Source: Promethearchaeia archaeon (GTDB taxonomy: Archaea > Asgardarchaeota > Lokiarchaeia > Sigyniarchaeales > SOKP01). From it: a stretch of DNA of 64,000 nucleotides. Positions 18,949 through 47,098 of this stretch are shown in pieces. Both the position numbers and the translations under genes were made by a program. The DNA is taken from NCBI GenBank assembly GCA_029856045.1, contig JAHQWG010000028.1, positions 204,547 through 268,546 of the forward strand, given 5' to 3'. The notes under the pieces are model-generated. The model searched no databases and had not been told where the DNA came from. It saw only the letters and a program-made list of their open reading frames with translations. Every line of letters starts with the position of its first letter. Position 1 is the stretch's first letter.

Positions 18949-20811
18949 ATGTCTCAATCTCAAAATATAGCAAGATTGGATTTTATAAATTTTCCTCAGA
19001 AAATTTTAATTCCTAATCAAGATTTTCAGTTGAATTTTCAAATTACAAATAATTCTGCAAATTCAGAACTTTATAAATTAATTATTAGTGGAGAGAATTT
19101 AGAAATTATACAGTCCGAAGAATTAATTAAAGGTATACAATTCAAAGAGAATGAAACTAAGCAGTTTAAAATAAATTTACGCCCTAAGATTGATGGACAA
19201 GGAAAAATTACTTTTAATATAACTCATGTGAAAACTGTTCAATACACAGTTAAAGTTAAAAAAATAAGAGAGATTGTGTCAATAAGTAAAATTAATGAGA
19301 TTTTTGGTAAAGAATACATTACTTCATCAGACATGGAGGATCTTTTTTTTAAAGATGAGTTCGTAGAAAATATGAGCAATTTTGAAATTCAAGAAGCTCT
19401 TAATAAATTGGATTTACCCGATGAAAACCCTGTTGCATCAGAATATGGTGAAGAACGACAAACTCCATTTTGTCCTCCTGAACAAAAAAAAATCCTAATA
19501 AAAAAAATAGCAAAAGCCTACTTTACGAAAAAGGAACTTGTAAAATCATTTAAAATAATTGAAAGATTATCAGATGTTAATGAGCGATGGGGATTATACT
19601 CTGATTTGGTTAGAGCATATGCATTTATTAATGTTAAAGAAGCCGTTGATTATGCTGGTGTGATTCCTGATAAGAAAAAAAAAGATAATTTGCTTAAAAA
19701 TATTGCATTAGATATAATTTTAACTGATGCTGAACAAGCAAGTCAAATTGCATTACTAATTGATGACTCTAAATTAAAAGAAACAGTCTTATCAGAAATA
19801 TTATTCAAATGCGTAAAGGGAGAACCTTTATTAGCTATAAAAATATCAAATCTTATTGAAGATTTAACTTTAAGGATATTAGTTTTATTTGAAATTTGTT
19901 CTTCATTATTGGCTCAAAATAACAAATTAAAAGTATTAGAACTTATACAAACCGTTTTAAAAATACTTCTTTCCGAAAAATCCGTTAATTTAGCAGAAAA
20001 TAATTTTAATAATTTTAATTTTCATCTATTTATAAATTCTATTCATGCTCTTGCTGAATTGGATTCTCCAAAAGCTGCTGATGCTTACATAAAATCACTT
20101 AAAGAAAAAAAATTGAGAAAAAAAATCAAAGAGGACCTATTTGATATAATCTATAAAATGGTTGATGAAACACGCACAAGAATTGATTCCTTCATTGTAA
20201 TTAATCAATATTTCTTGATAAATACATATTTTTCAACTATTTTTGAAGAATTATCAAATTTTGCAAATATGGATGGTAATATAAGTGAAAATATATTATC
20301 TAAAAATTTTAATTTTAAAATATTAGTATTTTGTCTATTTGGGTATTCATTTCATACATTTCCCTTTTTTGATAGGATTTATAATGAATTAAAGAAAGAA
20401 AACAGTGATTCATTTGCATATTACACATTACCCGTAAAAGGAAAGCATAATGAAAGTGATTCTATCATAATAAAAAAAACAATTAAACATTTTTTCAAAT
20501 CAAATTTTTCACAAATGAATAATGACATTTATGTTTTCAATTTGGATTTCATTCCGTATTTAAATGCACCTACAATTATTATGGAGTCTGATCCCGCTAT
20601 AAATATTTCGATTCAATCAAAAATAATCAGTAAATTGGGAAATAAAATAAGTTTTATTCTCGATAATGGAGTTTTTAAAGGTGGGGATATCCCAGAAATT
20701 TTAAAATCCATATTTACTAACAGCAATTTTAAAATTATCAATTTAGTATTATCTTATGAAATATTAAACAATTATATTTTATTTAAGCACTTTCTTAAGG
20801 CATTGCTATAA
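18949..20811 (+). CDS. Unknown protein with N-terminal Ig-like domain and long helical region
   Basis: 620 residues, family not recognised. Residues about 5-110 look like an Ig/MSP-type beta-sandwich (PQKILIPNQDFQLNFQITNNS ... FKINLRPKIDGQGKITFNI), resembling eukaryotic-type beta-sandwich adhesion or scaffold folds. Residues about 175-440 are a run of amphipathic helices with HEAT/TPR-like spacing (KKIAKAYFTKKELVKSFKIIERLSDVNERW ...). The last 150 residues are alpha/beta (YTLPVKGKHNESD ... NKISFILDNG). No signal peptide or membrane helix. It is 15 nt upstream of a GCS2-type ligase, and both precede an amidohydrolase, so it probably acts as the scaffold or recognition subunit of that operon. 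Confidence 0.75.
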   Translation: MSQSQNIARLDFINFPQKILIPNQDFQLNFQITNNSANSELYKLIISGENLEIIQSEELIKGIQFKENETKQFKINLRPKIDGQGKITFNITHVKTVQYTVKVKKIREIVSISKINEIFGKEYITSSDMEDLFFKDEFVENMSNFEIQEALNKLDLPDENPVASEYGEERQTPFCPPEQKKILIKKIAKAYFTKKELVKSFKIIERLSDVNERWGLYSDLVRAYAFINVKEAVDYAGVIPDKKKKDNLLKNIALDIILTDAEQASQIALLIDDSKLKETVLSEILFKCVKGEPLLAIKISNLIEDLTLRILVLFEICSSLLAQNNKLKVLELIQTVLKILLSEKSVNLAENNFNNFNFHLFINSIHALAELDSPKAADAYIKSLKEKKLRKKIKEDLFDIIYKMVDETRTRIDSFIVINQYFLINTYFSTIFEELSNFANMDGNISENILSKNFNFKILVFCLFGYSFHTFPFFDRIYNELKKENSDSFAYYTLPVKGKHNESDSIIIKKTIKHFFKSNFSQMNNDIYVFNLDFIPYLNAPTIIMESDPAINISIQSKIISKLGNKISFILDNGVFKGGDIPEILKSIFTNSNFKIINLVLSYEILNNYILFKHFLKALL

Positions 20812-20826
20812 AAGTGTAATAAAAAA

Positions 20827-22575
20827 ATGACAAAAGGGAAAAAAGAGAAAAAGAAAAAGAAAGAAGATGAAGAACCCTCAAGTGCTGGATTATTTTCAGC
20901 TCTTAGTGGAGGGGCAGAAAAAAGAGATGTTTCTGACTTAAATCCGCTATTTCAAGCCAATGTGGCATCTTTCTCAGATTTTAAAAAAGGAAAAAAGTCT
21001 GTTGAACCCAGAACTATTTCTGAAGTTAGACACGCAACATTGGGCTCTAAAGTTGAAAAAAAAGATAAATTATCTGTTGGAACGGATTATCAAGAAATTA
21101 TTCTTCCAGAGATCTCATGGGGTGAAATGCTTGCAGATATAACTAATTGGACGCCACTCCCTTTTACGCATGGAATAGAGATGGAGCTTATAATCTGTGA
21201 TGATGATGGGAATTATCCTCCTGGTGATGAAATGGTTTTTAGAATGAAAGAAATTGTTAAAGAATCTATAAAAATAATAAATGAGATTATCTATGAGGGG
21301 CGAGAGGATTTTTTACCAATGCCTGATTATATTCGAGGGAAAATCATGCAAGCTCCCTTTGGAAAGGAGGATATCGAAAAAGGGTATGTAATGAATATTT
21401 CATATAATCTTCAAGGAACCGAATTAAATATTGATAGTTTTGGAAGAGATGGAAATGTCACTGCCATTACTTATATTTTAGAATTAGTCACTCCCCCCTG
21501 TGAATACGTCGAAGAATTAGCTTACTGGTCCTCAACATTATTTTTATTAGCAAAAAAAACACTTCCTAGAGATTTGCATATAGTAGCTTCTGCTATAAAT
21601 CCTACATCAAAAGAGTATCAAAGAGGTTTATCGCAAGCAGATCATCATCATTTAGGTGATTTTAATTCCGAATTAGAAAAAATGCAAGCTTATTGTATGA
21701 TAAGAAATTTCATACCTCATATTATTGCATTATCAACTAATTCCCCTATTATTAATAATAGGCCTACAGATGTTATCAAAATAATCAATAATAGAATAAC
21801 TGCTCCTAACTGTGTTCGTTCTTTAAGATTAAAATATAATTTAACTATGTTGTCCAATAACGATCCCAAATTTTTTATGCCTTATCTTAGTGAAGGTGGT
21901 GAAAATGGGCTTAATTATTTTTTGCAAGTAGTTAATAAAGCCAGTAGAGAAGATGGACGATTTCAAGATATTTTTCCATTTACAGATTGGGGAACTATTG
22001 AAATAAGAGCAATGGATGCACAAATTTCAATTTGTCGAAGAATTGGATTAGGATTACTTGTTCAAACACTATGCTATAAAGCTAGAAAATTGTATCAAAA
22101 CAAACAATGGGTTCCAGATGCAGGTTCTGAAACAATTGCCTTTAATCGTGCGAGCGTAATTAACAGAGGGTTAATTGCCCTATTTAAACCAATAAATCTA
22201 ACAAAAGAAACACTAGTAGAATATGACCCTGAATTTGCTGAAGCATATCTTGGACCTGATAATAATCCTAATCGCTATATGTTTCAAGCAGTTCAAAGGA
22301 TGTTCATATATCTTAAACCGGAATTGGAAGAATTGGGTTTTTTATATTCTCCTTTTTTAAAGCCACTTTTACAATCAGTTTTTGGAAATGTTTCATATGC
22401 TGAACCCCCAATAACCGAAGCAGAATATCAATTAAGTCTTTTTCAGTATAAAATAGATAATGATCAATTTCCAGATGTTCTTGAAGATTTAATTTATTTT
22501 ACAATTGAATATTGTCAAGACCCACTAAATCAACCTCTAACTGGTACTTTACTTCTTCCGAAAGAAATGAGATGA
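20827..22575 (+). CDS. GCS2-type carboxylate-amine ligase (glutamate-cysteine ligase family)
   Basis: 582 residues. The first 80 or so are lysine-rich and low complexity (KGKKEKKKKKEDEEP), an unusual extension. The catalytic region has family motifs: GIEMEL (116-121, metal-binding Glu), SQADHHHLGDF (269-279), STNSP (303-307) and TIEIRAMDAQ (390-399). GCS2 enzymes activate a carboxylate with ATP and join it to an amine; haloarchaeal GshA and bacterial YbdK are relatives. The substrate here is not known. It lies between the Ig/helical gene and an amidohydrolase, which could hydrolyse the amide that this enzyme makes. Ends in TGA, 22 nt before the next gene. Confidence 0.82.
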   Translation: MTKGKKEKKKKKEDEEPSSAGLFSALSGGAEKRDVSDLNPLFQANVASFSDFKKGKKSVEPRTISEVRHATLGSKVEKKDKLSVGTDYQEIILPEISWGEMLADITNWTPLPFTHGIEMELIICDDDGNYPPGDEMVFRMKEIVKESIKIINEIIYEGREDFLPMPDYIRGKIMQAPFGKEDIEKGYVMNISYNLQGTELNIDSFGRDGNVTAITYILELVTPPCEYVEELAYWSSTLFLLAKKTLPRDLHIVASAINPTSKEYQRGLSQADHHHLGDFNSELEKMQAYCMIRNFIPHIIALSTNSPIINNRPTDVIKIINNRITAPNCVRSLRLKYNLTMLSNNDPKFFMPYLSEGGENGLNYFLQVVNKASREDGRFQDIFPFTDWGTIEIRAMDAQISICRRIGLGLLVQTLCYKARKLYQNKQWVPDAGSETIAFNRASVINRGLIALFKPINLTKETLVEYDPEFAEAYLGPDNNPNRYMFQAVQRMFIYLKPELEELGFLYSPFLKPLLQSVFGNVSYAEPPITEAEYQLSLFQYKIDNDQFPDVLEDLIYFTIEYCQDPLNQPLTGTLLLPKEMR

Positions 22576-22597: not shown

Positions 22598-24157
22598 ATG
22601 TTAACTGTTAAAATTGAAAGCACAAAAAGAACATACATAAAAAATTTATTTGTTATAGATGCACATTCCCATCTTGGCGAAGATGTAGATGGAGCTACAA
22701 TGATGAATCCTCTTGCTCCTGGTTCCGGAACTTTTGATTTCTGGACAAAAGTACAAGCCAAATTAATTGAAGAATGGAATAAAACAGGAGAAAAATCTTT
22801 CCAAACTACAATGGACGGTGAATTAATAAAATTAACTTTTGATTTTACACCTATACCTTTTATTAAAAAGATTTTTGAAAATTTGCAAACATTAAATGGA
22901 AATTTTTCAGATGTAAATGAAAAAACAAGCCATACTTCATTTATTGACCAAGCTGTGGTTTTTCCCTTTCAAGATACTTTTAGAAATAAACGACCAGAAG
23001 CCTTGTATCGTGCAAGTAATATTAATATATCAAGATTCACAACGCGCTTTCCATTTTCATTTAAATTGATTGGATATTGTCGCGTTGATCCTATGGAAGG
23101 AGAAAAAGCAGTAAATGAAGTTAAATATGGTAATGAAGTTTTAGGTCTTAGAGGTTTAAAATTGCATCCTCGTTCTGAAGGCTGGATTGATCATGTAAAT
23201 ACACAAAAACCGATTAATGTTTTAATCGAAGCTGCAAAGCATTCAATGCCTACTCTTTTTGATACTAGAGGAAGGCAGACAATCCTAGATATTCGAGATC
23301 TTATTACTAACACACGAAATTTAATTCAAAAATCATATCCGGAATTATTGCCCCATTTTAAAGTCATTATTGGTCATTGTGCGCAAGGAAATGTTGAAGA
23401 TTATGAAGTTTATGAGGCAATAATACAACCAAATACAATTGGAGAATTATCAATGCTTCATGGTTCAGGAGCGGGAAATTTCTTTGCAAGTTTTAGAAAT
23501 TGGTATATTAAAAACAATAAAGAAAAAAGCACAGGAAAAAAATGGTCTGAATTTTTACTTTATGGCTCTGATTATCCATATTTCGGTGATGTTCACGCTG
23601 AAAAATTAATAATTTATATTATTAATAAACAATTTTTTGATTCTGGTGGAACCTTAAATGATGCTGAAAATATTCTGGGATTAAACCTTATTAAACTTCT
23701 ACCAGAATATAATTTACCTCAAATAGAGAAAAATAATGTAATGGTTAGATCTACTCTTATACCAAATATCCAATTAGGTCAAGGTCCCCCTCAAGATAAC
23801 ATACCATTAAACATTGGCACAAAAATAATCGCCAAACTATTATCTGATAACACAATTGACATCTCTAAGCTATGTTTCCAATTTAAAGAATCTTTTGAAA
23901 ATTATAATAATGAAGCACTGTTGAAAACGGTATCTAAAACATCACCAAATAAAATTGCAAATTTATTGTTCATGAATTTACTTCAAAATCAACTTGCAAT
24001 CATCACTCCTCTTAAAAATGATGCAATATGGAATAAATTTGGATATAAATATTTCAGTATTGAAGATCATGAGCTTTTTAATTCAGTCCTTAGCAATAGC
24101 TATCCCACTAACAACATTAATCAAGCAACACAAATAATTTCTCAAATATTTCAATAA
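22598..24157 (+). CDS. Amidohydrolase-superfamily enzyme (amidohydrolase 2 type) with extra C-terminal domain
   Basis: 519 residues. Metal-site residues of the amidohydrolase 2 fold are visible: DAHSHLG (H23, H25), GLKLHPRSEGW (Lys188/His190), IIGHCAQGN (His260) and LLYGSDYPY (Asp325). After about residue 390 there is a roughly 130-residue extension (SKLCFQFKESFENYNNEALL ...) not typical of the family. The 22-nt gap from the ligase gene implies co-transcription. Members hydrolyse amides or decarboxylate aromatic acids; with a carboxylate-amine ligase upstream, cleavage of a peptide-like or gamma-glutamyl-like amide is a reasonable inference. Third and last gene of the operon. Confidence 0.82.
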   Translation: MLTVKIESTKRTYIKNLFVIDAHSHLGEDVDGATMMNPLAPGSGTFDFWTKVQAKLIEEWNKTGEKSFQTTMDGELIKLTFDFTPIPFIKKIFENLQTLNGNFSDVNEKTSHTSFIDQAVVFPFQDTFRNKRPEALYRASNINISRFTTRFPFSFKLIGYCRVDPMEGEKAVNEVKYGNEVLGLRGLKLHPRSEGWIDHVNTQKPINVLIEAAKHSMPTLFDTRGRQTILDIRDLITNTRNLIQKSYPELLPHFKVIIGHCAQGNVEDYEVYEAIIQPNTIGELSMLHGSGAGNFFASFRNWYIKNNKEKSTGKKWSEFLLYGSDYPYFGDVHAEKLIIYIINKQFFDSGGTLNDAENILGLNLIKLLPEYNLPQIEKNNVMVRSTLIPNIQLGQGPPQDNIPLNIGTKIIAKLLSDNTIDISKLCFQFKESFENYNNEALLKTVSKTSPNKIANLLFMNLLQNQLAIITPLKNDAIWNKFGYKYFSIEDHELFNSVLSNSYPTNNINQATQIISQIFQ

Positions 24158-24310: not shown

Positions 24311-24700
24311 TTATCCTAAAAGTTCAAAAACTTTTCCCAATGCCATCATTTTTCCTAATCCACGTAATTTTATTTTCCGAGTAATCCAATTTTTCATCAA
24401 TGTTCCTGTAGATAACCCTTCACCAAAAACACCTAGAAAAATTTCCATAGGTGCTTCAAATATACCATCTGGTTTCAAACTTTTCAATGTTTCCTTGTCA
24501 TTTTTAACGGCTTCTGCATCTATTTTACCCTTATCTATCTTTAATAAAGCGGCATACCTTTGATCTTTAGGATTAAGCAAAATATTTACAGTTGTATCAC
24601 TAAACTCTTTTTTAAACTCGTCTATATAATTTAACGCTTCAATTTGCATCCACAATAATCCTGCAAGCCCTCTTCTTACTTTTTTTTTTGGAAACGACAT
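24311..24700 (-). CDS. SCP2-like (sterol carrier protein 2 fold) protein, copy 1
   Basis: 129 residues, matching the small SCP2 fold: beta strands with ILLNPKDQRYAALLKIDKGKIDAEAV, then DKETLKSLKPDGIFEAPMEIFLGVFGEGLSTGTLMKNWITRKIKLRGLGKMMALGKVFELL, whose KIKLRG-x-GKMMALGKVF end is the usual SCP2 hydrophobic-pocket helix. Such domains bind lipids or acyl-CoA. It is the last gene of the corrinoid protein/methyltransferase operon (55 nt after the methyltransferase). Paralogue at 27997-28386. Binding of a hydrophobic methylated substrate or cofactor is inferred from context only. Confidence 0.75.
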   Translation of the reverse strand: MSFPKKKVRRGLAGLLWMQIEALNYIDEFKKEFSDTTVNILLNPKDQRYAALLKIDKGKIDAEAVKNDKETLKSLKPDGIFEAPMEIFLGVFGEGLSTGTLMKNWITRKIKLRGLGKMMALGKVFELLG

Positions 24701-24755
24701 TTTAAATCACATTTAATATAAATTTAATTAGTTTTTTTCAATTTTATTTGATTTT

Positions 24756-25964: not shown

Positions 25965-25965
25965 T

Positions 25966-26613
25966 TTAACTAACCTCCATCAATTTCTTAGCCTTTTCTG
26001 CAGCGTCAACTGCATCCTTGCCCCAAGCATCAGCTCCAATCTCATCTGAAAATTCCTGGGATGTAGGAACTCCACCAACCATCACCTTAACGCTGTTGCG
26101 CAGACCATTTTCTTGAAGTTTTTTGATAATATCCTTCATATCCAACATCGTGGTTGTCATATAACAACCTAACCCTAAAATGTTAGGTTTGAGCTCCTTA
26201 ACTTTTTCTATGAAGGTTGCGATTGATACGTCCTCTCCCACGTCGATAACCTCAAATCCAGCACTTCGTAACATAACTATCACTATTATTTTGCCCAGGG
26301 TGTGCATATCACCAGCCACTGTTCCAATTACTACTTTCCCCGTTGCTCCGAATTCTCCAGCAGTTAAATGAGGTTCAATGATTTCCATTGCCATCTTGAA
26401 AGCTTCGGCACTCATCACAACATCTGGCAGAAAATATTCGTTTTTCTTCCATAATTCTCCTGCCTCTTCAATTCCCGGTATAATACCTTCATTCACTATG
26501 TTCAAGGGTTGAATATTCTCTTCGAGAGCCTTTTGAGCCAAGCTTTGGGCTAAATCATCCTCACCTTCAAGAATTGCATTTTCTAATTCTTTTAAAGTAT
26601 TTGTAACAGCCAT
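25966..26613 (-). CDS. Methyltransferase corrinoid (B12-binding) protein, copy 1
   Basis: 215-residue MtaC/MtbC/MtgC-type protein: N-terminal helical cap (residues 1-85), then the B12 Rossmann domain with DMHTLG (D102, His104 as lower cobalt ligand, G107), DVGEDVSIATF and MVGGVPTSQEF. It carries the methyl group between methyltransferases. First gene of the operon; the next gene begins 1 nt after its stop. It differs from copy 2 (29701-30348) at only about six residues, for example Leu/Ile30, Glu/Gln32 and Ser/Ala near 189, and is almost identical in DNA including silent positions. Confidence 0.95.
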   Translation of the reverse strand: MAVTNTLKELENAILEGEDDLAQSLAQKALEENIQPLNIVNEGIIPGIEEAGELWKKNEYFLPDVVMSAEAFKMAMEIIEPHLTAGEFGATGKVVIGTVAGDMHTLGKIIVIVMLRSAGFEVIDVGEDVSIATFIEKVKELKPNILGLGCYMTTTMLDMKDIIKKLQENGLRNSVKVMVGGVPTSQEFSDEIGADAWGKDAVDAAEKAKKLMEVS

Positions 26614-26857
26614 ATTAATTTTATCTCTTTTTTTAATTTATATATTAATTTTATTTTTGCTTTTGATTAAACTAATAGTATTTATAATATTATACGATCA
26701 AAAAAACTTTATTTGAGTTGAAAAATGAAATATATAAAAATTAAAGATTTTGAATGATTATTTATTATATTTGAAATAAAAAAAGATATATTAAAGTTGG
26801 AAAACAATTATTTGATTAAACAACTTTTTAAAAGTTAAATATATTAGACCGTTTTAA

Positions 26858-27742
26858 ATGTCTCAACTTATTATTGACGAACTAAAAGTGTTCTTAAAAA
26901 GTGCAAATCTTTCTAATTATGAGATAAATGCATATATAACATTATCAATATCGAATCCTTTAAAAGCACGAGAAATAAGTGAAAGATCAGATATACCTAT
27001 TGGAAGAATTTATGATATATTAGAAAAATTAAAAGAAAAAGGATTAATAGAAAATCAAGAAGTACGACCAAAAATGTATAAATCTTTGCCTTTTAGTTTT
27101 GCCTTTCAAACTCTAATTGACCAAGTAAGTAATGAAAATCAACAAAAAATATCCGTATTATATGAAAAGGCAAGAAAAATTGAATCAAAAATTTTTAATT
27201 CAAATTTATCAATGAATAAACAAATATCAAAGACATTTTGTTCAATAGAATATGATAGAAATTCGATTTTATCATTATATATTAGCAATGTGAAAGAATT
27301 AAAAGAAGAGTTGCTTACAATGAGTTTTTTAAATGAAGAAATTCTGAATTTTATTTCTATTGGAGAAAATTATTTCTTAGAAATCCTCGAAGCTATGAAT
27401 CGAGGTGTCCAAGTGAAATATCTTTGGACCCTTAAACCTGGTATAAACCCTTTTACGAGTAATCTAACTAATAAAAATCAAAAAATTTATCATAAAATAG
27501 AAAAAATAATTAATGATAAATATAATCTTTCCATTGATATTAAAGGATTTGATATGAAATATGTCCCCAAAATAATTCCAACTCAATTTAGTATTTTTGA
27601 TAAAAAAAGAGTTATATTTAAAATACATAATCCTTTTAGAACATCAGAAATTTTATTTGCTTTGAATTTATTAGATCCAAACTTAGCGATGAAATTGAGA
27701 GAAATATATCTCAATATTTGGTTTTTTGATGTAACTGACTAA
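26858..27742 (+). CDS. TrmB-family HTH transcriptional regulator
   Basis: 294 residues. The N-terminal winged helix reads LSNYEINAYITLSISNPLKAREISERSDIPIGRIYDILEKLKEKGLI, the typical TrmB domain, followed by a coiled-coil linker (about 85-120) and an effector domain. It is divergently transcribed from the corrinoid/methyltransferase operon with a 244-nt shared intergenic region, so it probably controls that operon in response to a substrate. The copy-2 position carries a different TrmB-like protein that aligns only in the HTH. Confidence 0.85.
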   Translation: MSQLIIDELKVFLKSANLSNYEINAYITLSISNPLKAREISERSDIPIGRIYDILEKLKEKGLIENQEVRPKMYKSLPFSFAFQTLIDQVSNENQQKISVLYEKARKIESKIFNSNLSMNKQISKTFCSIEYDRNSILSLYISNVKELKEELLTMSFLNEEILNFISIGENYFLEILEAMNRGVQVKYLWTLKPGINPFTSNLTNKNQKIYHKIEKIINDKYNLSIDIKGFDMKYVPKIIPTQFSIFDKKRVIFKIHNPFRTSEILFALNLLDPNLAMKLREIYLNIWFFDVTD

Positions 27743-27831
27743 AAAAAATAAATAAAATTCGAATATTGTTGCAACTAATAAGTTAAAAATTAATTTTAAA
27801 TTTTTTAATTATTTTAAACGTTTAATAAATT

Positions 27832-27906
27832 ATGTTAAATTTTAAGAGAGAACAACAAATATTAGATATTGGTGGAATAAAGCTTGGAATTAATGTATAT
27901 TTTTAA
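27832..27906 (+). pseudogene. Truncated mtrH stub (24 codons) at the duplication junction
   Basis: ATG at 27832 opens MLNFKREQQILDIGGIKLG, nearly identical to the first 19 residues of MtrH encoded at 31841, then continues with INVYF and a stop. The switch falls at about 27888, where sequence becomes that of the region downstream of the SCP2-like gene. The roughly 60 nt upstream also match the leader of the intact mtrH, so a promoter may still drive this stub. Confidence 0.85.
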
Positions 27907-27996
27907 AAAACTCATTTTGCTATAGATTAATCAAAAAAAAAAAGAGAAAAAAAAGAAACCTAATGTTAACGCCCTTTAAAAGTTCTAATGTAAGCC

Positions 27997-28386
27997 TTAT
28001 CCTAAAAGTTCAAAAACCTTTCCTAATGCCATCATTTTTGTTAATCCACGTAATTTTATTTTCCGAGTAATCCATTTTTTCATCAATGTTCCTGTAGATA
28101 ACCCCTCACCAAAAACACCTAAAAAAATTTCCATAGGTGCTTCAAATATACCATCTGGTTTCAAGCTTTTCAATGTTTCTTTGTCATTTTTAACGGCTTC
28201 CACGTCTATTGTACCTTTATCAATTTTTAATAAAGCGGCATATCTTTGGTCTTTAGGATTAAGTAAAATATTTAGACTTGTATCACTAAACTCTTTTTTA
28301 AACTCGTCTATATAATTTAAAGGTTTGATTTGCATCCACATTAATCCTGCAAGCCCTTTTTTTACTTTTGTTTTTGGAAACGACAT
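27997..28386 (-). CDS. SCP2-like protein, copy 2
   Basis: 129 residues, about 90 percent identical to the copy-1 protein at 24311-24700 and the same length. Differences are scattered (for example MQIKPLNYID versus MQIEALNYID, DTSLNILL versus DTTVNILL), with the SCP2 core SLKPDGIFEAPMEIFLGVFG unchanged, which argues that both copies are functional. It ends the second methyltransferase operon, about 100 nt after the methyltransferase. Confidence 0.75.
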   Translation of the reverse strand: MSFPKTKVKKGLAGLMWMQIKPLNYIDEFKKEFSDTSLNILLNPKDQRYAALLKIDKGTIDVEAVKNDKETLKSLKPDGIFEAPMEIFLGVFGEGLSTGTLMKKWITRKIKLRGLTKMMALGKVFELLG

Positions 28387-28487
28387 ATTAAATCATATTT
28401 AATATAAATTTAATTAATTCTTTTCATTTCAATTTGATTTTTTTTTTAATTTTTTATTTTTATTTAATTAAATCACATTGTTTTTTA

Positions 28488-29699
28488 CTAGATTGTTCCA
28501 TCAGTTAATTTTTTCTTCCATTCTTTAAATGATTCACGTTTTGGTATCTTAAATTCAATATCATCAAGATTATCAGCTATGGGTAACCGACCATAGGTAT
28601 GTATAGCCGCAACTGCAGCATGAATATGGTCAGAAGGAGCGTCAGCTGGAATATTATCTAAGAAAAAAGATAAACTATGATCTCGGCCAAGAATATCGAT
28701 ATAATGTTTGATAGTATCAACGATTTTTTCTACTGGACCATCTCGGAGTAACCGAGCATTAACACCAGCAGTAATAGTCACATTAATACTTTCTTCCCGA
28801 AGCTTGGCTGTATAATCTCGGACTGGTTCTAAAGGGTAGTCTTGCCAGGGACCATAAAGTAGGAATAACATTGGCGCGCCTGTACATGCAATTCCAACAT
28901 CAAAACATCCATGCAAAATTTCAGCATCAAACTTATCTAGTTGTTCTTCGCTGTAGGTACCACTGCTGCACATTATCATAACTCCCAATTTTTTGCATTT
29001 CTCCCTCAACCGCTCTGTATAAGGTACTACCCATTCTTTCATATCCTTAACTGATAGGTTTGGAACAGACGCCCAAGCATCAGGAGCAAAAGCCATGAGG
29101 ATATCAGTATAATCATTTTGTACCTTAATGTATGGTACTAATACATCATCTATAATAAATGTAAATAGCTCATGGGCAAAATCTGGGCGCTTTTTCATAT
29201 CCTTGATTAATGCTGGATAACTTCGCATTCCTACTGCCATGCTAAAGGGAGCACAGAACGATCCTGCTACCCCTTCATAGTCTAGGCTAAGATTAATACA
29301 CTCTAAAGCATAAGGTAACCGCCCATCATTATACCAGTCCACTTCCTTTTTCTTGAGTTTATGTAAGTCCTCAAGATTTTTAATTAGAGGGTCTCGAAAA
29401 TCTATGGTTGGCATTGAATTTTCACCATAGATCATTTTACCCCCCATTGCCTCTATTTCAAGATTGTAAACATCAGTGATAGGCGTACAAGAATCTAGCT
29501 GGTAATAACCTGATACATCAGCTGTGGATTCAACAAACACCTTAGCATCATGATAGAATTTCTTGGCTGGTTCTTCAGTCAATGTCATTATGTGGTCGGG
29601 CATTTGAGCAATAACTTGAATCCAAGGCTTTTCTGGATCTATAATAAGACCAGATAATCCCTTACTTCCTGCACCCTTTTTGGATTTTTCTTTCCCCAT
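28488..29699 (-). CDS. Uroporphyrinogen decarboxylase-family methyltransferase (MtaA/CmuA-like), copy 2
   Basis: 403 residues, paralogue of the enzyme at 24756-25964 with the same landmarks (YGENSMPTIDFRDPLIKN, CAPFSMAVGMRSYPALIKDM, DAEILHGCFDVGI, NARLLRDGPVEKIV, PADAPSDHIHAAVAAIHTYGR). It is markedly more diverged from its paralogue than are the SCP2 or corrinoid partners, especially at residues 15-90 and 270-340, which suggests that the two enzymes accept different methylated substrates. The HICG-like position is again altered (MIMCSSGTY) while HGC is kept. Begins 1 nt after the corrinoid gene. Confidence 0.82.
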   Translation of the reverse strand: MGKEKSKKGAGSKGLSGLIIDPEKPWIQVIAQMPDHIMTLTEEPAKKFYHDAKVFVESTADVSGYYQLDSCTPITDVYNLEIEAMGGKMIYGENSMPTIDFRDPLIKNLEDLHKLKKKEVDWYNDGRLPYALECINLSLDYEGVAGSFCAPFSMAVGMRSYPALIKDMKKRPDFAHELFTFIIDDVLVPYIKVQNDYTDILMAFAPDAWASVPNLSVKDMKEWVVPYTERLREKCKKLGVMIMCSSGTYSEEQLDKFDAEILHGCFDVGIACTGAPMLFLLYGPWQDYPLEPVRDYTAKLREESINVTITAGVNARLLRDGPVEKIVDTIKHYIDILGRDHSLSFFLDNIPADAPSDHIHAAVAAIHTYGRLPIADNLDDIEFKIPKRESFKEWKKKLTDGTI

Positions 29700-29700
29700 T

Positions 29701-30348
29701 TTAACTACCCTCCATCAATTTCTTAGCCTTTTCTGCAGCGTCAATGGCATTCTTGCCCCAAGCATCAGCCCCAATCTCATCTGCAAATTCCTGGGATGTA
29801 GGAACTCCACCAACCATCACCTTAACGCTGTTGCGCAGACCATTTTCTTGAAGTTTTTTGATAATGTCCTTCATATCCAACATCGTGGTTGTCATATAAC
29901 AACCTAACCCTAAAATGTTAGGTTTGAGCTCCTTAACTTTTTCTATGAAGGTTGCGATTGATACGTCCTCTCCTACGTCGATAACCTCAAATCCAGCACT
30001 TCGTAACATAACTATCACTATTATCTTACCCAGGGTGTGCATATCACCAGCCACTGTTCCAATTACTACTTTCCCCGTTGCTCCGAATTCTCCAGCAGTT
30101 AAATGAGGTTCAATGATTTCCATTGCCATCTTGAAAGCTTCGGCACTCATCACAACATCTGGCAGAAAATATTCGTTTTTCTTCCATAATTCTCCTGCCT
30201 CTTCAATTCCCGGTATAATACCTTCATTCACTATGTTCAAAGGTTGAATATTCTGTTCGATGGCCTTTTGAGCCAAGCTTTGGGCTAAATCATCCTCACC
30301 TTCAAGAATTGCATTTTCTAATTCTTTTAAAGTATTTGTAACAGCCAT
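29701..30348 (-). CDS. Methyltransferase corrinoid (B12-binding) protein, copy 2
   Basis: 215 residues with DMHTLG (cobalt ligand His104), GEDVSIATF and GGVPTSQEF, near-identical to copy 1. Same operon position: first gene, followed after 1 nt by the methyltransferase. The high identity, even at silent sites, compared with the diverged methyltransferase alongside suggests recent gene conversion or strong selection on shared partners (the MtrH acceptor and a reactivation factor). Divergent from a TrmB-like regulator gene across a 263-nt gap. Confidence 0.95.
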   Translation of the reverse strand: MAVTNTLKELENAILEGEDDLAQSLAQKAIEQNIQPLNIVNEGIIPGIEEAGELWKKNEYFLPDVVMSAEAFKMAMEIIEPHLTAGEFGATGKVVIGTVAGDMHTLGKIIVIVMLRSAGFEVIDVGEDVSIATFIEKVKELKPNILGLGCYMTTTMLDMKDIIKKLQENGLRNSVKVMVGGVPTSQEFADEIGADAWGKNAIDAAEKAKKLMEGS

Positions 30349-39830: not shown

Positions 39831-40319
39831 TTACCATTCGATTTCATCTCCAATTTGTTTCAATGGCCAAATCCAGTAAGATTTTCGCTTTTTGACACCT
39901 TTTTCTTTTAATTCTTTAAACAATTTGATTTTTTGCTCTTCTATTAATCCATCAGGGTCAAATAAAATTTTTCCATCATTCATACAATCCAAAATTAGGT
40001 CAACTTTATTCTGAATTAGGTTTTTAAACTCAGTTTCCTTAACCCATATTGAATCTATACCAGAAAGAGACAATCCCATCAAATCTAATTTTACTTCAGT
40101 TAATTTTTTATGATCTTCAGGAATTTCATTATCAGAAAAAATTACGATTAAATCAATATCACTTAATTTTTCTTCTGAATGAATAGCTTTATTTCTTGCT
40201 AAAGAACCAAATAAAATTATTCCCTTTATTCTTTTTCCTGTTTGGAATAATTTATTAAAATATTCATTTAGTATTTTTAAAAAATATTCATCTTTAATAA
40301 ACGAAAGATTTATACCCAT
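39831..40319 (-). CDS. MNT-type nucleotidyltransferase (antitoxin of HEPN/MNT pair)
   Basis: 162 residues. Minimal nucleotidyltransferase motif: GSLARNKAIHSEEKLSDIDLIV (GS at 38-39, D54 and D56 as metal ligands), with a slightly longer spacer than usual, then a third acidic residue in DLILDCMNDG. The start overlaps the HEPN gene by 10 nt. In HepT/MntA pairs the MNT enzyme adds AMP to the HEPN toxin and neutralises it. Just downstream, frame-shifted coding-like sequence (IGRKFFDENGILTRIKLEEL, about 39735-39820) suggests that a C-terminal part may have been lost. Confidence 0.85.
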   Translation of the reverse strand: MGINLSFIKDEYFLKILNEYFNKLFQTGKRIKGIILFGSLARNKAIHSEEKLSDIDLIVIFSDNEIPEDHKKLTEVKLDLMGLSLSGIDSIWVKETEFKNLIQNKVDLILDCMNDGKILFDPDGLIEEQKIKLFKELKEKGVKKRKSYWIWPLKQIGDEIEW

Positions 40320-40831
40320 TTTTTTAACTCATCCATTAATTTTTCAAATTGCATTAATTCATCAATTTGTTTATCCGTTAATTTAAAAGATTCCTTTAGC
40401 AAAACCAAAAAAAAATTTATAATTATTCCAAGATATTTAAGAAATTTTTCAATGTCTTTGATAGTAGAATATATTTCCTCAGAGATTATTAATTCTCCAT
40501 TTTTAAATATTCCATATCTAGTCTTTGTGCCCTCTTCTTCAAAAAATTTAGAATAATTACAGATTTGTTTGAGTATTTCCCTTGTTTTTTCATCTATATT
40601 AATAGATTCTTCATTTTTGAGAACATCTTTTAATATAATAGATGGTGTATGCGTTTTAATACTTTTTATTCCCATTAAATTCAAAATTGATTTGTTTAAT
40701 TTCTCTACGGCAAATTGACACCTAAAAGCAATATCTGCAAAATCCTCCGTTTTAAGATCCTTTAAAACTCTATCTATATCATGTATAGCTGAAATAATCC
40801 ACTTTCTAGCTTGGGAAAAATTAGTTTCCAT
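40310..40831 (-). CDS. HEPN-domain protein (toxin-like partner of MNT)
   Basis: 173 residues, helical. The HEPN start is recognisable: ARKWIISAIHDIDRVLKDL then DIAFRCQFAVEKLNKSILNLMGI and KTHTPSIIL, matching the fold of archaeal HEPN proteins. The catalytic R-x(4-6)-H motif of RNase-type HEPN toxins is not seen anywhere, so RNase activity is doubtful. About 30 extra residues at the end form one more helix. Overlaps the MNT gene by 10 nt, the usual two-gene arrangement. Confidence 0.8.
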   Translation of the reverse strand: METNFSQARKWIISAIHDIDRVLKDLKTEDFADIAFRCQFAVEKLNKSILNLMGIKSIKTHTPSIILKDVLKNEESINIDEKTREILKQICNYSKFFEEEGTKTRYGIFKNGELIISEEIYSTIKDIEKFLKYLGIIINFFLVLLKESFKLTDKQIDELMQFEKLMDELKKWV

Positions 40832-41336: not shown

Positions 41337-41434
41337 GCCTCAGTTGCTTAGCCTGGTAGAGCGTTGCCTTGGTATCAAATCCGTAGGTTTAAACAGAAAG
41401 GCAAAGGTCGCGGGTCCGACTCCCGCCTGAGGCT
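41337..41434 (+). tRNA. tRNA-Thr (GGT) with a 24-nt intron
   Basis: Acceptor GCCTCAG/CTGAGGC (41337-41343 and 41427-41433), D stem GCTT/GAGC, anticodon stem TTGCC (41364-41368) with GGCAA (41400-41404), T stem GCGGG/CCCGC with loop TCCGACT. The anticodon loop reads TTGGTA then A, giving anticodon GGT (41371-41373). Twenty-four extra bases (41375-41398) sit at the canonical archaeal position between 37 and 38. The discriminator base T agrees with archaeal tRNA-Thr. CCA is not encoded. Confidence 0.9.
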
Positions 41435-41694: not shown

Positions 41695-43257
41695 ATGTAT
41701 AAATTGAATAAATTAAACTTCTCTAAAACAATTTCCAGTTCCCAAATGGCTTCAGAGGATAATAATTCTGAATGGTTGGGTATTCCCAAGAATTTATTAA
41801 TGGAATGTGCAGGTTATTCATTCACTCAAAATATTATTGAATATTATAATTTGAAGCCATATCAACGAGTTATTATATTTTCTGGGCTTGGTAATAATGG
41901 TGGTGATAGTTTTGTAATTGCTCGTCATTTATCGAGTATGAAAATATATGTGGATTTAATTTTAATAGGATTACCTGAGAAAATAAGAACGGAGGAGTCG
42001 CGATTAAATTGGAATATAATTCAAAATCTAAAGTTAGCGATTCAAATCAGAATTATAAAGGATTCTTCAGAATTTAAAAATCTTCAAGAAGAGTTAAATA
42101 AAATCAAGTTTGAATTAATTATTGATGGACTGCTGGGAACTGGCATTAAAGGAAAAATAAGAGAACCAATATCATCTGCTATTGATTTAATTAATGAATT
42201 TCAATCTAAAGGCATTAAAATCACCTCTATTGATGTACCCTCTGGAATGAATCCTGATACTGGAACTATATTGGATAAAGTAATTAAAGCTGATTATGTG
42301 ATAACTTTCCATAAATTAAAAAATGGTTTAAAGGAAAATACTGAATATGCAAAAAAGGTGGAAGTATGTCCAATTGGAATACCACTTGAGGCAAACCTAT
42401 TCGTTGGTAGGGGTGACTTAATACCAACAATTAAAATTCACCCCGAATCTTCGCATAAAGGTGAAAATGGCAAAATATTAGTAATTGGAGGAAGTAAAGA
42501 TTATTCTGGGGCACCCGCATTAGCATCCCTGGCAGCAATTAAAATAGGGGTAGATTTAGTTAGAACATTTGTACCTGAATCAATCTCAGAAATTATAAAA
42601 AAATATTCACCTAATCTAATTGTAAACCATGGGAGTGGAGATTATATTTCTGTTGAACATTTGGCTTCTCTAAAAGAATTGATTGAATGGGCTGATGCAA
42701 TTTTAATCGGTCCAGGAATGGGAATTAATAATATTACTCAAGAAGCAACCTTAAAAATATTAGATATTTTATCTGAATTAAACAAACCTTGTGTTATTGA
42801 TGCTGATGCCTTGAAATTAATTAAAAATAATCTTAAATTAATACAACGTTCCAATATCATATTAACACCACATGAAGGAGAATTTAAGATAATGACTGGA
42901 GAATCTCTACCTCCAATGGAAAATTTTATTGAAAGATTAGAGAATGTCTCAAGAGTCGCAAAAAGATATGGAGCGACATTTTTAGTTAAAGGGAAATATG
43001 ATCTAATATCTAACGGTTTAGAGAGAAAAATTAATCAAACAGGATGTTCCCAAATGACCGTAGGTGGAACCGGTGATATCCTTGCAGGATTGTGTACCGC
43101 ATTTATGTCTGTGAAAAATAGCGCTTTCAACTCAGCATGTTCAGCGGCTTTTTTAAATGGATTAGCTGGAGAATTATGTTTAGAGGAAGTTGGAGATTTT
43201 TTCACAGCCTCCAACATGATAGATAAAATTCCAGCGACTCTAAAAAAAATATTATAA
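41695..43257 (+). CDS. nnr: Bifunctional NAD(P)H-hydrate epimerase / ADP-dependent NAD(P)H-hydrate dehydratase
   Basis: 520 residues. N-terminal YjeF_N (epimerase) domain: MECAGYSFTQNI, FSGLGNNGGDSFVIARHL and DGLLGTGIKGKIREP with the catalytic Asp, to about residue 240. C-terminal ribokinase-like dehydratase: HKGENGKILVIGGSKDYSGAPALASLAAIKIGVDLVR, ILTPHEGEFKIMTG and the ATP/ADP-site GGTGDILAGL (about 460-469). Repairs damaged NAD(P)HX in the cytoplasm. Both domains are complete. Follows the CAT-anticodon tRNA gene by 78 nt. Confidence 0.95.
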   Translation: MYKLNKLNFSKTISSSQMASEDNNSEWLGIPKNLLMECAGYSFTQNIIEYYNLKPYQRVIIFSGLGNNGGDSFVIARHLSSMKIYVDLILIGLPEKIRTEESRLNWNIIQNLKLAIQIRIIKDSSEFKNLQEELNKIKFELIIDGLLGTGIKGKIREPISSAIDLINEFQSKGIKITSIDVPSGMNPDTGTILDKVIKADYVITFHKLKNGLKENTEYAKKVEVCPIGIPLEANLFVGRGDLIPTIKIHPESSHKGENGKILVIGGSKDYSGAPALASLAAIKIGVDLVRTFVPESISEIIKKYSPNLIVNHGSGDYISVEHLASLKELIEWADAILIGPGMGINNITQEATLKILDILSELNKPCVIDADALKLIKNNLKLIQRSNIILTPHEGEFKIMTGESLPPMENFIERLENVSRVAKRYGATFLVKGKYDLISNGLERKINQTGCSQMTVGGTGDILAGLCTAFMSVKNSAFNSACSAAFLNGLAGELCLEEVGDFFTASNMIDKIPATLKKIL

Positions 43258-43376: not shown

Positions 43377-44198
43377 ATGGTTCAAGTCTTCAAAATTTTA
43401 GATACCGGGGAAACTGAAGAAATTAAAGATACTGGCAATCCAATTAAGGATATCCTAGACATTTCTGAAGTATATATTATAATCAGCGAACATCGGGATA
43501 AAACAATTTGGTTATGGAAAGGTGCAAAATCATCGGTTAGAAGAAAATTCATTGGAGCCCAGAAGTCGCAGGACGTTCGAGGGCAGGTAGGAATGCAATA
43601 TTCAGTGTTTCCTGTAGATCAAGGCGAGGAAAAACCAGATTTTATAAAAATTATTGGGGGTAATCCCAGTGAAGGATTTGCGAGAGAAATTAAAGATGAT
43701 AGTGCTGGACTAGAGACTCATCCTTTAAGGCAAAAGCAAATTTTTGAACCACCAGAACCAGCAGAAGGGATGAAAATCGGACCATCACCTCAGGCTCAAG
43801 CTGGAATAGGGCCTTTATATACTGGAGAGGAATCAATATCTAAATATTTAGAACCGAATACTGTTGATTTTAAATCGGTGATGCAAAAATTAGAAGAAAT
43901 TGCTACTCCGGAAGGTTTCGAAAGAGAAATGATTATTATTGGCTCCCAAACCTTTGCGGTTGTCGAAAAAGTTCAAACATTTTTGGGTAAAAAACAGATT
44001 GAGAAAGTTATTGAGCGTATTAGTTCAATCCCTGAAGGTGTTTTTTTTGCTGAAGGCTATACGCCTCGAATTTTATCAGAAAATGGAAAAGTCTTAGCTG
44101 TAGAATTTTTAAAAAAATCAAATAGTAATAAAAATAATAATCCTAATAAAAAGAATATCTTAAAAAATCAAATAAACCAACAATTAGGTTCTTCCTAA
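43377..44198 (+). CDS. Gelsolin-like domain protein (Asgard eukaryotic-signature type)
   Basis: 273 residues. Residues about 25-105 match a gelsolin repeat: DISEVYIIISEHRDKTIWLWKGAKSS, then RRKFIGAQKSQDVRGQVG and YSVFPVDQGEEKPDFIKIIGG, the last being the usual EGxExxxF end of the repeat. A Pro-rich linker follows (about 120-155), then a second alpha/beta domain (FKSVMQKLEEIATPEGFEREMIIIGSQTFAVVEK ... PEGVFFAEGYTPRILSENGK), and a Lys/Asn-rich tail. Gelsolin-fold proteins of Asgard archaea bind actin in vitro. It opens a three-gene group with a Roadblock protein and a vWA protein. The second domain is unassigned. Confidence 0.72.
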   Translation: MVQVFKILDTGETEEIKDTGNPIKDILDISEVYIIISEHRDKTIWLWKGAKSSVRRKFIGAQKSQDVRGQVGMQYSVFPVDQGEEKPDFIKIIGGNPSEGFAREIKDDSAGLETHPLRQKQIFEPPEPAEGMKIGPSPQAQAGIGPLYTGEESISKYLEPNTVDFKSVMQKLEEIATPEGFEREMIIIGSQTFAVVEKVQTFLGKKQIEKVIERISSIPEGVFFAEGYTPRILSENGKVLAVEFLKKSNSNKNNNPNKKNILKNQINQQLGSS

Positions 44199-44295
44199 TA
44201 ACAAGAATTTAAAATAAATGATATTAACAAAAAAATATTAAGTCACTTTAATTGTATTCTATAAAATTAAATAATTTTTAAAATAAAATCTAATA

Positions 44296-44688
44296 ATGAG
44301 CGATTTAACACCACAAGAAGCTCAGAATTTATCCGAGTTCTTAGGAAATATCACTGAACATACTGATTTAGAAGCATTGGCGTTAGTTACTCGAGAAGGT
44401 TTAAGACTTGCTTTTTCATGCGTTCCGGGTTATAACATCAATCCTGATTTATTTTCGTCTATGAGCGCTGTTGTATTAAAAAGCGGGGACGATGCTATTC
44501 AAGCACTTGAATATAATGATCTTCTTGAAGTTATTCTTCGAGGAGATAACGCATTCATAATTTTAAGCAACGCTGGACGATTCTTCCTAATGGGAGCAAG
44601 TAGAGAGATTAAAGATTTAGGAAAAATAGTCTCAGTCTTTAGATACTATTCAAAAGAAATCTCTAATAGATATCCAAAATTATCTTAA
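44296..44688 (+). CDS. Roadblock/LC7-like domain protein
   Basis: 130 residues with the Roadblock order: helix (SDLTPQEAQNLSEFLGNI), strand LEALALVTREGLRLAFSCVPG, helix LFSSMSAVVLKSGDDAIQAL, strands DLLEVILRGDNAFIILSNAGRFFLMGAS, closing helix LGKIVSVFRYYSKEI. Such proteins dimerise and dock on small GTPases. It lies 97 nt downstream of the gelsolin-like gene and 244 nt upstream of the vWA gene, all on the plus strand. Confidence 0.82.
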   Translation: MSDLTPQEAQNLSEFLGNITEHTDLEALALVTREGLRLAFSCVPGYNINPDLFSSMSAVVLKSGDDAIQALEYNDLLEVILRGDNAFIILSNAGRFFLMGASREIKDLGKIVSVFRYYSKEISNRYPKLS

Positions 44689-44932
44689 AATTACCTAATT
44701 CTTTAATATTTAAGGAAAATATTGTTATTACAAAGCGTACAAATCTTCTAAGTTTCATAATTTTTTTAAAATACACAAGACATATATTTCAAAATTTTAT
44801 TAATATTGAGTAGAAGTCCGTTTAAAATTTTTTAATGATTAAAAATAAATTATAAATAAGAATTCTAACATTTTATACTAATGAATATTTATTATGTTCT
44901 CAAAGGAATATTAATATTATAAAGGGTTAATC

Positions 44933-47098
44933 ATGTCTAAAGAGCCAATAATGTTGTTTGTTGAGGTTTTTGATTCAGATTCTGCAAAAGTAATAATCTC
45001 TAATGAGAATCTTGAAAAATTAGGTGTTAAGAATGGAGATATTGTTGAAGTTATAGATAAAGATACAAATAAAACTACATCAGCATTTATTGAGGGCTCT
45101 ACGAATGTTCTTGAATTTGCTGGTAAATTTTCTAAATTGATATGTGATAAATTAGGTTTTAAAGGAGTGGAATTAGGTGTTCAAGTAAGATCTGATATTT
45201 CCATAACTCCTGAGCTTACTCCCTCTGAAAAAATTTCAATTCCAGTAACCCCACCTACTGAAATAAAACCCCCTAAAATTGAATTCGATATTGAACAACC
45301 GCAACCAATGAAACCTCAAACTCCCACTTATGCACCTCCAGAACCACAACTACCAATTCCTGGAATTACTCCCCCACCGTCCCCACCTGGATTGACTCCA
45401 ACGCCACCACCCCCTCCACAACCATCACCAACATATGCACCTCCAAAACCGCAAATGCCAACACCTGGATTAACACCCCCACCACAACCACCACAAATAG
45501 ACCAATTAGGAGTTCAACCAAGTGGATTACCCGAAACTGAGATAGCTCCTGCTTACACCAATCAAATTGATATATATACTTTGCAGACTCAAAAAAGTGG
45601 CTTAATTTTAACACCAAAAGTAGTCGATGATATGGAAGGAAGGATTCATTTAAGTGAGAATAATCTCCGAAAATTAGGATTGGGTGTAGGAATGTTAATT
45701 GCATGGGAAGATCCCTTGACACGCTCTGTAGGTTCAGCGAGAATTTCTATGGGTCTTAACGTTCCAGATAATCAAATCATAATGGATCAAAATACAAAGG
45801 AAGATACTAATCTCCTTTCTGATCAAGTTGTAGTTTTTTCTACTGAACCACCCATTCAGAAAATGGAGGAAATTTCCCTGGAAGTTAATTCAAAACCAGA
45901 ACTTAGTGGTTTTTGTCATGTTAGCCCTAGGATAATGCATTCACTCTCTGTACAACCTGGTAATATCTTAGCTTTTGAAGACGAATTAACTGGCGCTATT
46001 GGAGCTGCAAAAGTTCAAATTAATGAAAGAATGCCCTCCAATCAAATTGTTATTGATAATGAGATATTAGAAGCTTCCGGAATCGGTAGTTATGAAGTTA
46101 TTGTAAGAAAAAACCCAAGACAAATTATTTCTTTACAATCAATAACTTTAGGTTTAAGTCCAATTAAAGGAGAAAATATGTGGGAGCTTGTAAGTACAAT
46201 ACGTCAAAACGTTGACGCCTTAAAAAATTGGCTTATGAATTATATAATATTTAAAGGAATTAAATTAAGATGGAATGTAGCCAATGTTGCATGTTCTGTC
46301 ATAGATTGCATACCTGATTTAACAGGAGATATTTTTGCACAAGTATCTCCAAATACTACATTAAGCTTGAGTCCAACGGGTCTTATTCCGTTTAATGCAA
46401 TATTAATTATTGACATTAGTAGGAGTATGATGGCGCGCGATGTAGAAATTAGAAATATTGCTCCTGCAATCGAGGGAATTAAGGCAGCCATGTATTCCCC
46501 AGAAATTCAAGAATTTTTAAAAAAATTTAAGGAAGGTATTTCAGTTCCACGTCGAATAGCAGCCGCTTTTGCAGCAGTTCTATTCTTAAGTGAGAAAGTG
46601 GGAAGAGGATTCGGAGAAAAAGTGAGTGTTATACGTTTTGCTGATGAAGCGCAAGTATTACCCTTCCAAGGAGGGTTGTATATGGATTCTGCCAGCGGTG
46701 AAAAAGGAATTCTTGAGGATTGTGCTCGAATGATTGTTGATAGGATTGGGAACGCTTATGGTCAAGCAACAAATATGGGTGCCGCAATGCTTGCAGGAAG
46801 GGAAGTTCTATACACTTTTGAACAAATAAATCCCGATCAGCCAACAATGTTAGTAATATTAACTGATGGTGTTCCTACCGATGTAGATAATTTTCTTGAA
46901 GCTATTAAGCAATTCAGTGAAAACCCAAATGTTGTAATATATATTGTAGGTCTGGGAAATCCTGATGATCAATTAATGAATAGAGCTGCTAATTTATGTG
47001 GTGGAGAATACTTTAAACCAAATGATGCAGGGGAATTATTGATCTGGTACTCAAAAAGGGCAAGAGATCTAACGGTAAAACTTAAAGCTCATAAATAG
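44933..47098 (+). CDS. von Willebrand A protein with Cdc48-N-like barrels and a polyproline linker
   Basis: 721 residues. Residues about 5-85 resemble the double-psi barrel of Cdc48/VAT N domains (VFDSDSAKVIISNENLEKLGVKNGDIVEV). Residues 103-200 are proline-rich with a duplicated unit (TYAPPEPQLPIPGI and TYAPPKPQMPTPGL) and runs of PPP. Two more barrel-like repeats follow (238-300 and 328-395: HLSENNLRKLGLGVGMLIAWED and HVSPRIMHSLSVQPGNILAFED). Residues 487-690 are a vWA domain with a complete MIDAS: DISRS (494-498), Thr613 and TDG (644-646). No signal peptide. Role unknown; context with gelsolin and Roadblock suggests a cytoskeletal or AAA-adaptor function. Confidence 0.85.
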   Translation: MSKEPIMLFVEVFDSDSAKVIISNENLEKLGVKNGDIVEVIDKDTNKTTSAFIEGSTNVLEFAGKFSKLICDKLGFKGVELGVQVRSDISITPELTPSEKISIPVTPPTEIKPPKIEFDIEQPQPMKPQTPTYAPPEPQLPIPGITPPPSPPGLTPTPPPPPQPSPTYAPPKPQMPTPGLTPPPQPPQIDQLGVQPSGLPETEIAPAYTNQIDIYTLQTQKSGLILTPKVVDDMEGRIHLSENNLRKLGLGVGMLIAWEDPLTRSVGSARISMGLNVPDNQIIMDQNTKEDTNLLSDQVVVFSTEPPIQKMEEISLEVNSKPELSGFCHVSPRIMHSLSVQPGNILAFEDELTGAIGAAKVQINERMPSNQIVIDNEILEASGIGSYEVIVRKNPRQIISLQSITLGLSPIKGENMWELVSTIRQNVDALKNWLMNYIIFKGIKLRWNVANVACSVIDCIPDLTGDIFAQVSPNTTLSLSPTGLIPFNAILIIDISRSMMARDVEIRNIAPAIEGIKAAMYSPEIQEFLKKFKEGISVPRRIAAAFAAVLFLSEKVGRGFGEKVSVIRFADEAQVLPFQGGLYMDSASGEKGILEDCARMIVDRIGNAYGQATNMGAAMLAGREVLYTFEQINPDQPTMLVILTDGVPTDVDNFLEAIKQFSENPNVVIYIVGLGNPDDQLMNRAANLCGGEYFKPNDAGELLIWYSKRARDLTVKLKAHK

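Follow-up and report, generated by a model that had tools for sequence, protein, structure and literature searches.

Gelsolin domains bind actin, Roadblock proteins serve as dimeric platforms for small GTPases in known cases, and small GTPases control actin in eukaryotes. Actin, profilin, gelsolins, and Roadblock proteins all occur in Asgard archaea, alongside numerous small GTPases. The gelsolins (PMC9433394), the Roadblock proteins (PMC10933270), and the actin-related proteins (PMC9834061) of Asgard archaea have each been described; in the open-access literature searched (subscription papers and preprints lay outside the search), we found neither a connection at the gene level between the GTPase regulators and the actin set nor a report of the gene pair described below or of its neighborhood. 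Here, we report a block of three genes in a 64,000-nucleotide stretch of DNA (the window; contig JAHQWG010000028.1, positions 204,547 to 268,546) from a Promethearchaeia archaeon: gel (43377..44198, 273 aa), robl (44296..44688, 130 aa), and vwa (44933..47098, 721 aa), which encode a gelsolin-like protein, a Roadblock/LC7 protein, and a protein with Cdc48-N-like barrels, a proline-rich linker, and a vWA domain, respectively. An initial annotation had described them as three consecutive plus-strand genes, and all three open reading frames are indeed present in these places and on this strand. In our reading, gel and robl would form a long-standing Asgard pair, and the two proteins most likely work jointly in the cytosol.

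Conservation of the gene block

The gaps in the window are 97 bp between gel and robl and 244 bp between robl and vwa, and directly upstream of gel lies nnr (41695..43257, plus strand), encoding an NAD(P)HX epimerase/dehydratase. Promoter boxes around gel, robl, and vwa were uninformative, the intergenic sequence being AT-rich. A scan of named genomes turned up 44 loci, every one in a Lokiarchaeal metagenome-assembled genome, and the order nnr-gel-robl-vwa recurs across dozens of Lokiarchaeal genomes, with gel and robl co-directional in 34 of 35 loci and robl and vwa in 35 of 36. Most orthologs of the block proteins are ~50 to 65% identical to those of the window, so the conserved order does not merely reflect recent divergence. 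As an internal control, the recurrence of homologs of each gene in the other loci was counted: block genes are found again in practically all loci that cover their place, whereas for the first to fourth gene upstream of nnr the mean is only 1.5 to 4.5 of the 43 other loci. Shared by dozens of genomes although its flanks are not, the gene order reflects more than chance. Synteny across Asgard genomes had been set beforehand as the test that could refute the grouping, and the linkage proved to be conserved in relatives.

Within the window's own family, 65 genomes were sampled, of which 49 have a gel ortholog and 48 have the vwa protein, whole or partial. The genes gel, vwa, and that of an actin-related protein (ARP, see below) tend toward joint presence or absence, with Fisher P values of 1.9e-6 (gel/vwa) and 1.6e-4 (gel/ARP); please note that these values ignore the shared ancestry of the genomes.

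The pair of gel and robl reaches beyond this family. By profile search, members of the gel family are present in 131 of 228 Asgard genomes, covering 44 of 62 genera, and 40 loci from 13 other Asgard families were read. In five of these families (f2, f3, f18, f25, and f28), robl is located within 400 nt of gel; several f18, f25, and f28 loci have a gap of just 2 to 31 bp between the two reading frames or an overlap of a few bases, and some f3 genomes have robl in inverted orientation, yet still adjacent. A Roadblock gene also lies within ~1.1 kb of gel in f6 and f7. There are 9 to 17 Roadblock genes per genome (roughly 14); assuming ~3,300 genes per genome, adjacency by chance is expected in ~0.8% of cases per family, and the adjacency in 5 of 13 families has a binomial P of about 5e-8. 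In six families, nnr is constantly the upstream neighbor of gel, where it is probably a housekeeping neighbor.

Features of the gel, robl, and vwa proteins

The gel protein contains one gelsolin-like domain (~residues 15-96), a linker, a conserved C-terminal domain (~160-250), and a C-terminal helix. In a single-sequence scan, it remains under the Pfam gelsolin cut-off (14.3 bits, E 0.037), which its f25 ortholog exceeds (22.1 bits). Searched against the Protein Data Bank (PDB) with phmmer, gel matches a Lokiarchaeal 2DGel (E 2.4e-7) and an Asgard single gelsolin domain (E 1.5e-6), and with a profile of 29 gel sequences the best match reaches E 2.7e-11, 29 of the 31 matches at E up to 1 being gelsolin-family chains. 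The WxG signature is kept in the family, i.e., W47 in 39 of 41 sequences and G49 in all 41. Judged by this homology and signature, gel is a member of the gelsolin superfamily. The initial annotation spoke of a gelsolin-like repeat protein; the gelsolin part of this description stands, and the repeats do not, as both PDB searches found a single gelsolin domain without a second one, followed by the conserved C-terminal domain.

The AlphaFold2 (AF2) model of gel is weak (pLDDT 59). With this model, the top four Foldseek matches are gelsolin/adseverin at a probability of 0.89-0.97 but with E of 0.09-0.2. The C-terminal domain appears in the weak model as a helix, five strands, and a helix; the AF2 confidence is too low to assign its fold, and Foldseek gave no convincing match outside the gelsolin part. 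A further Roadblock domain was considered for this region and rejected (hhalign probability 0.2%). A second protein of the window's genome has the identical gelsolin plus C-terminal domain architecture (L131:6460-7215, G000:C7), and several such paralogs per genome are often seen in Asgard archaea.

Position 56 of gel, placed by PDB alignment, is what we take to be the helix site of the type II calcium-binding glutamate in calcium-regulated gelsolins. Of 41 sequences, 40 have K, R, or S there, which makes calcium control at that site unlikely, and at the Asp position of the same site the gel family has E, K, R, Q, S, or M. The protein thereby departs in two respects from the calcium-regulated actin-severing gelsolins, which have the helix Glu and two or more gelsolin domains.

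The robl protein matches Pfam Roadblock with E 3.1e-6 and 27.3 bits, exceeding the curated cut-off of 23, so that its naming as a Roadblock/LC7 protein holds. In f25, a Ras-family GTPase gene is located two genes upstream of gel, giving the order Ras-family GTPase, nnr, gel, robl in two genomes; in the single-contig genome among them (L209, G174:C1:940000-954000), the four genes form a tight run, the GTPase being 561 aa long. Elsewhere in the Asgard loci read, a search of the block for a small GTPase gene yielded only scattered, more distant genes. The GTPase control suggested at the outset is thus backed by the Roadblock family membership and by the f25 gene order. At 10739-11701, the window also encodes a fusion protein in which a Ras-family GTPase (Pfam Ras E 1.6e-38) follows an N-terminal region that looks Roadblock-like by eye.

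The vwa protein comprises a barrel (1-88), the proline-rich linker (88-206), two further barrels (214-304 and 313-393), a beta segment (403-481), and the vWA domain (488-700). Pfam matches are VWA (E 1.2e-8) and CDC48_N (E 2.5e-5, below the CDC48_N cut-off). In the AF2 model, the three barrels have pLDDT mostly of 80-91, and the top Foldseek matches are p97/Cdc48-type proteins at E about 1e-11; as modeled, the N-terminal and central domains have the Cdc48 N-domain (double-psi barrel) fold. The metal ion-dependent adhesion site (MIDAS) residues, D494-x-S496-x-S498 with T613 and D645, do not vary among the 29 orthologs. The description of a 721-aa protein with Cdc48-N-like barrels, a duplicated proline segment, and a complete MIDAS vWA domain is therefore accurate.

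Two functional suggestions attached to that description fared less well. The linker is disordered and proline-rich, and it contains the duplicated segment (45323..45492, plus strand), a 65-nt direct repeat, 77% identical, at a spacing of 105. Across 29 orthologs, the linker is 25-43% proline with a longest proline run of just 2-5, i.e., the duplication is not kept as long proline runs; moreover, Loki profilins have been reported without polyproline binding (PMC8410842). Profilin as a ligand of the proline-rich linker is thus not supported. An adhesion-type role is also unlikely because no segment reached membrane-like hydrophobicity in a hydrophobicity check.

An actin-related-protein operon adjoins the block in relatives

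Downstream of vwa in relatives lies a tight operon on the same strand, co-directional with vwa in all 33 loci where both could be placed, in the order AbrB/ACT-like regulator, coiled-coil protein, ARP, CHAT-like protein, PLD-like protein, and methyltransferase-like protein. It directly follows vwa in most of the window's family, to which it is nearly confined. ARP matches Pfam Actin (E 6e-44) and PDB actins (E 2e-36) and shares ~26% identity with lokiactin from the window's genome; the equivalents of actin Q137 and D154 are replaced in all ARP members checked, suggesting from sequence that ARP is divergent and probably non-hydrolyzing. The actin connection made initially is strengthened by this operon together with the gelsolin homology.

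The window's genome has its copy of the operon outside the window, on the opposite strand of the same contig and ~90 kb from the block (L140:3141-11148, G000:C36), a displacement consistent with one inversion. In three genomes (G010, G062, and G064), vwa is missing and the retained gel-robl pair adjoins the first ARP-operon gene; G010 has extra genes between operon genes one and two. An active CHAT protease in the operon was considered and rejected: the family alignment has G-N in place of the usual G-H and shows no invariant Cys, and the Pfam E is only 0.0034.

Other features of the window

Rfam assigns a tRNA to 41337-41434 (49.4 bits), missed by ARAGORN; its length of 98 nt indicates that it is probably intron-bearing. 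On the minus strand at 39831-40831, adjoining genes for a HEPN protein (Pfam HEPN E 4e-12) and a nucleotidyltransferase (Pfam Polbeta E 7e-10) make up a toxin-antitoxin-like pair. Also on the minus strand, at 24311-30348, two near-identical three-gene sets (corrinoid-type 215 aa, ~402 aa, and 129 aa) follow each other, by eye, and apparently arose by recent tandem duplication.

Discussion

With a gelsolin family and a Roadblock family joined in one widely kept pair, a GTPase-to-actin adaptor is the simplest reading. We consider that robl may bind a Ras-like GTPase, that the gelsolin-like domain of gel may bind actin or an actin-related protein, and that the pair would thereby connect actin-family filaments with the state of the GTPase, probably independently of calcium. 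The Cdc48-N-like/vWA protein would have joined in Lokiarchaeales as a large, metal-dependent cytosolic scaffold, and in the window's family the operon of the divergent ARP, the coiled-coil protein, and the CHAT-like protein would have become a neighbor. To this reading, i.e., a cytosolic Roadblock-gelsolin adaptor that couples a small GTPase to actin-family filaments with vwa as scaffold, we assign a probability of roughly 50%.

Several points weigh against it. We infer, rather than observe, the interaction among gel, robl, and vwa as a physical complex, the binding of a GTPase and of actin, and the direction of regulation. With gaps of the size found in the window, the three genes need not share a single transcript. 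The ARP operon stands apart from the block in G000 (the window's genome) and G019 and is present without gel/vwa in G007, G038, and G053, and part of the co-occurrence signal may stem from the common descent that the Fisher values ignore. Eight of the 13 outside families have no robl within 400 nt of gel, and a Ras-family gene stands near the pair in f25 only. Finally, linkage to gel is seen in equally many families for robl and for nnr, a gene of metabolite repair, so that the synteny may mean co-expression only.

Other readings overlap partly with the adaptor and are not mutually exclusive with it. The first concerns a second set of partners of vwa. In the window, a trio of genes co-directional with the block lies 17.5 kb upstream of nnr: c13 (18949..20811, plus strand; 620 aa, no Pfam match), a GCS2-like ligase-family gene (20827..22575, plus strand), and an amidohydrolase-like gene (22598..24157, plus strand), the L100 ortholog of the last matching Amidohydro_2 with E 6e-8. 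In a genome of the window's genus (L155), two trio genes are found 4.4 kb upstream of nnr. Because vwa homologs adjoin c13, GCS2-like, and amidohydrolase-like genes in nine families (f3, f4, f5, f6, f7, f15, f19, f20, and f28), and gel-robl persists without vwa in the three genomes mentioned above, vwa could belong, with the GCS2-like and amidohydrolase-like proteins, to a separate module of modifying function, so that in Lokiarchaeales it would be no more than a genomic neighbor of gel-robl. The two sets are, however, linked more than once: gel adjoins the amidohydrolase-vwa-GCS2 set in f20 and f4 (L203-L206), c13-GCS2-amidohydrolase adjoin gel-robl in f3 (L094, L229, and L230), and gel and vwa co-occur. 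We regard this separation as rather unlikely. The shared neighborhoods indicate that the gel-robl and vwa-GCS2-amidohydrolase sets, both widespread, meet repeatedly, and the c13/GCS2-like/amidohydrolase-like row suggests an undescribed Asgard module of its own.

COPII Sec23/Sec24 combine vWA-type and gelsolin-like domains and act with a small GTPase, and the domain types of gel, robl, and vwa recall Sec23/24 with a GTPase regulator. On this model, the gelsolin-like domain would not bind actin and would be a structural element of a GTPase-regulated, Sec23/Sec24-like membrane or scaffold assembly of gel, robl, and vwa, in line with the divergence of the gelsolin domain (the K/R/S at its calcium Glu position) and with gel-robl loci outside the window's family, which have no adjoining actin-family gene. 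The ARP operon immediately adjoining the block in most of the window's family argues the other way, as do the closest sequence matches of gel, which are actin-regulating gelsolins and not Sec23/24, and the invariant MIDAS of vwa, given that the trunk domains of Sec23/24 are not known to have one; we find such an assembly improbable. Equally improbable is that unrelated nnr, gel, robl, vwa, and ARP-operon genes are held together only by shared regulation or low rearrangement, as the equally linked nnr without an evident cytoskeletal role and the separable ARP operon might suggest, since gene order decays at once outside the block, gel and robl are adjacent in f18 and f28 though nnr is not beside gel, and gel, vwa, and ARP tend to be present or absent together.

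Returning to the adaptor, a more far-reaching version would place a complex of the gelsolin/C-terminal-domain protein and the Roadblock protein in an early Asgard ancestor, tying Ras-like GTPases directly to the actin cytoskeleton in a pre-eukaryotic GTPase-to-actin pathway, with Lokiarchaea adding the Cdc48-N/vWA scaffold and a dedicated non-hydrolyzing ARP; as a whole, this version is unlikely. The widely conserved gelsolin-Roadblock pair, with an ARP operon beside it in one family and a Ras-like gene close by in a second, would supply a connection at the gene level between the GTPase-regulator and actin sets, bearing on the origin of GTPase control over actin and approachable with small soluble proteins.

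Comparison with known systems

The Myxococcus polarity pathway joins a Roadblock protein, a Ras-like GTPase, and an actin-family filament. This combination makes MglA/MglB/MreB a candidate for a system that works like the block, to which the block adds a gelsolin-like partner, with a candidate GTPase gene nearby in f25 only (PMC9481161 for MglA/MglB). The block resembles COPII Sec23/Sec24 in bringing vWA-type and gelsolin-like domains together and differs in having them on separate proteins, with the MIDAS intact, no zinc finger found, and no sequence match. With Cdc48/p97 N-domain proteins, vwa shares the predicted double-psi-barrel N domain; unlike them, it has no AAA+ ATPase domain and combines three barrels with the proline-rich linker and a MIDAS vWA domain.

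Closer in lineage are the Asgard proteins. The gelsolins Loki2DGel, Thor2DGel, and the single-domain ProGel have a WxG gelsolin domain like gel, which is homologous to 7whg and 7c2f/7c2h; published 2DGel surveys reported none in Odinarchaeota. In contrast to these gelsolins, gel has one gelsolin domain plus the C-terminal domain, K/R/S in place of the type II calcium helix Glu, and an adjoining Roadblock gene. ARP is of the actin superfamily, as are the known Asgard actin-related proteins (PMC9834061), and adjoins actin-regulator-like genes in relatives; it forms a divergent clade in which the Q137/D154 equivalents are replaced. Finally, robl shares its family and the dimeric-platform theme with the Asgard Roadblock/longin GTPase platforms (PMC10933270); for MK-D1, the same paper reports that operons combining a small GTPase gene and a Roadblock gene are the exception, and robl differs from this Roadblock/longin pattern in being paired with a gelsolin gene.

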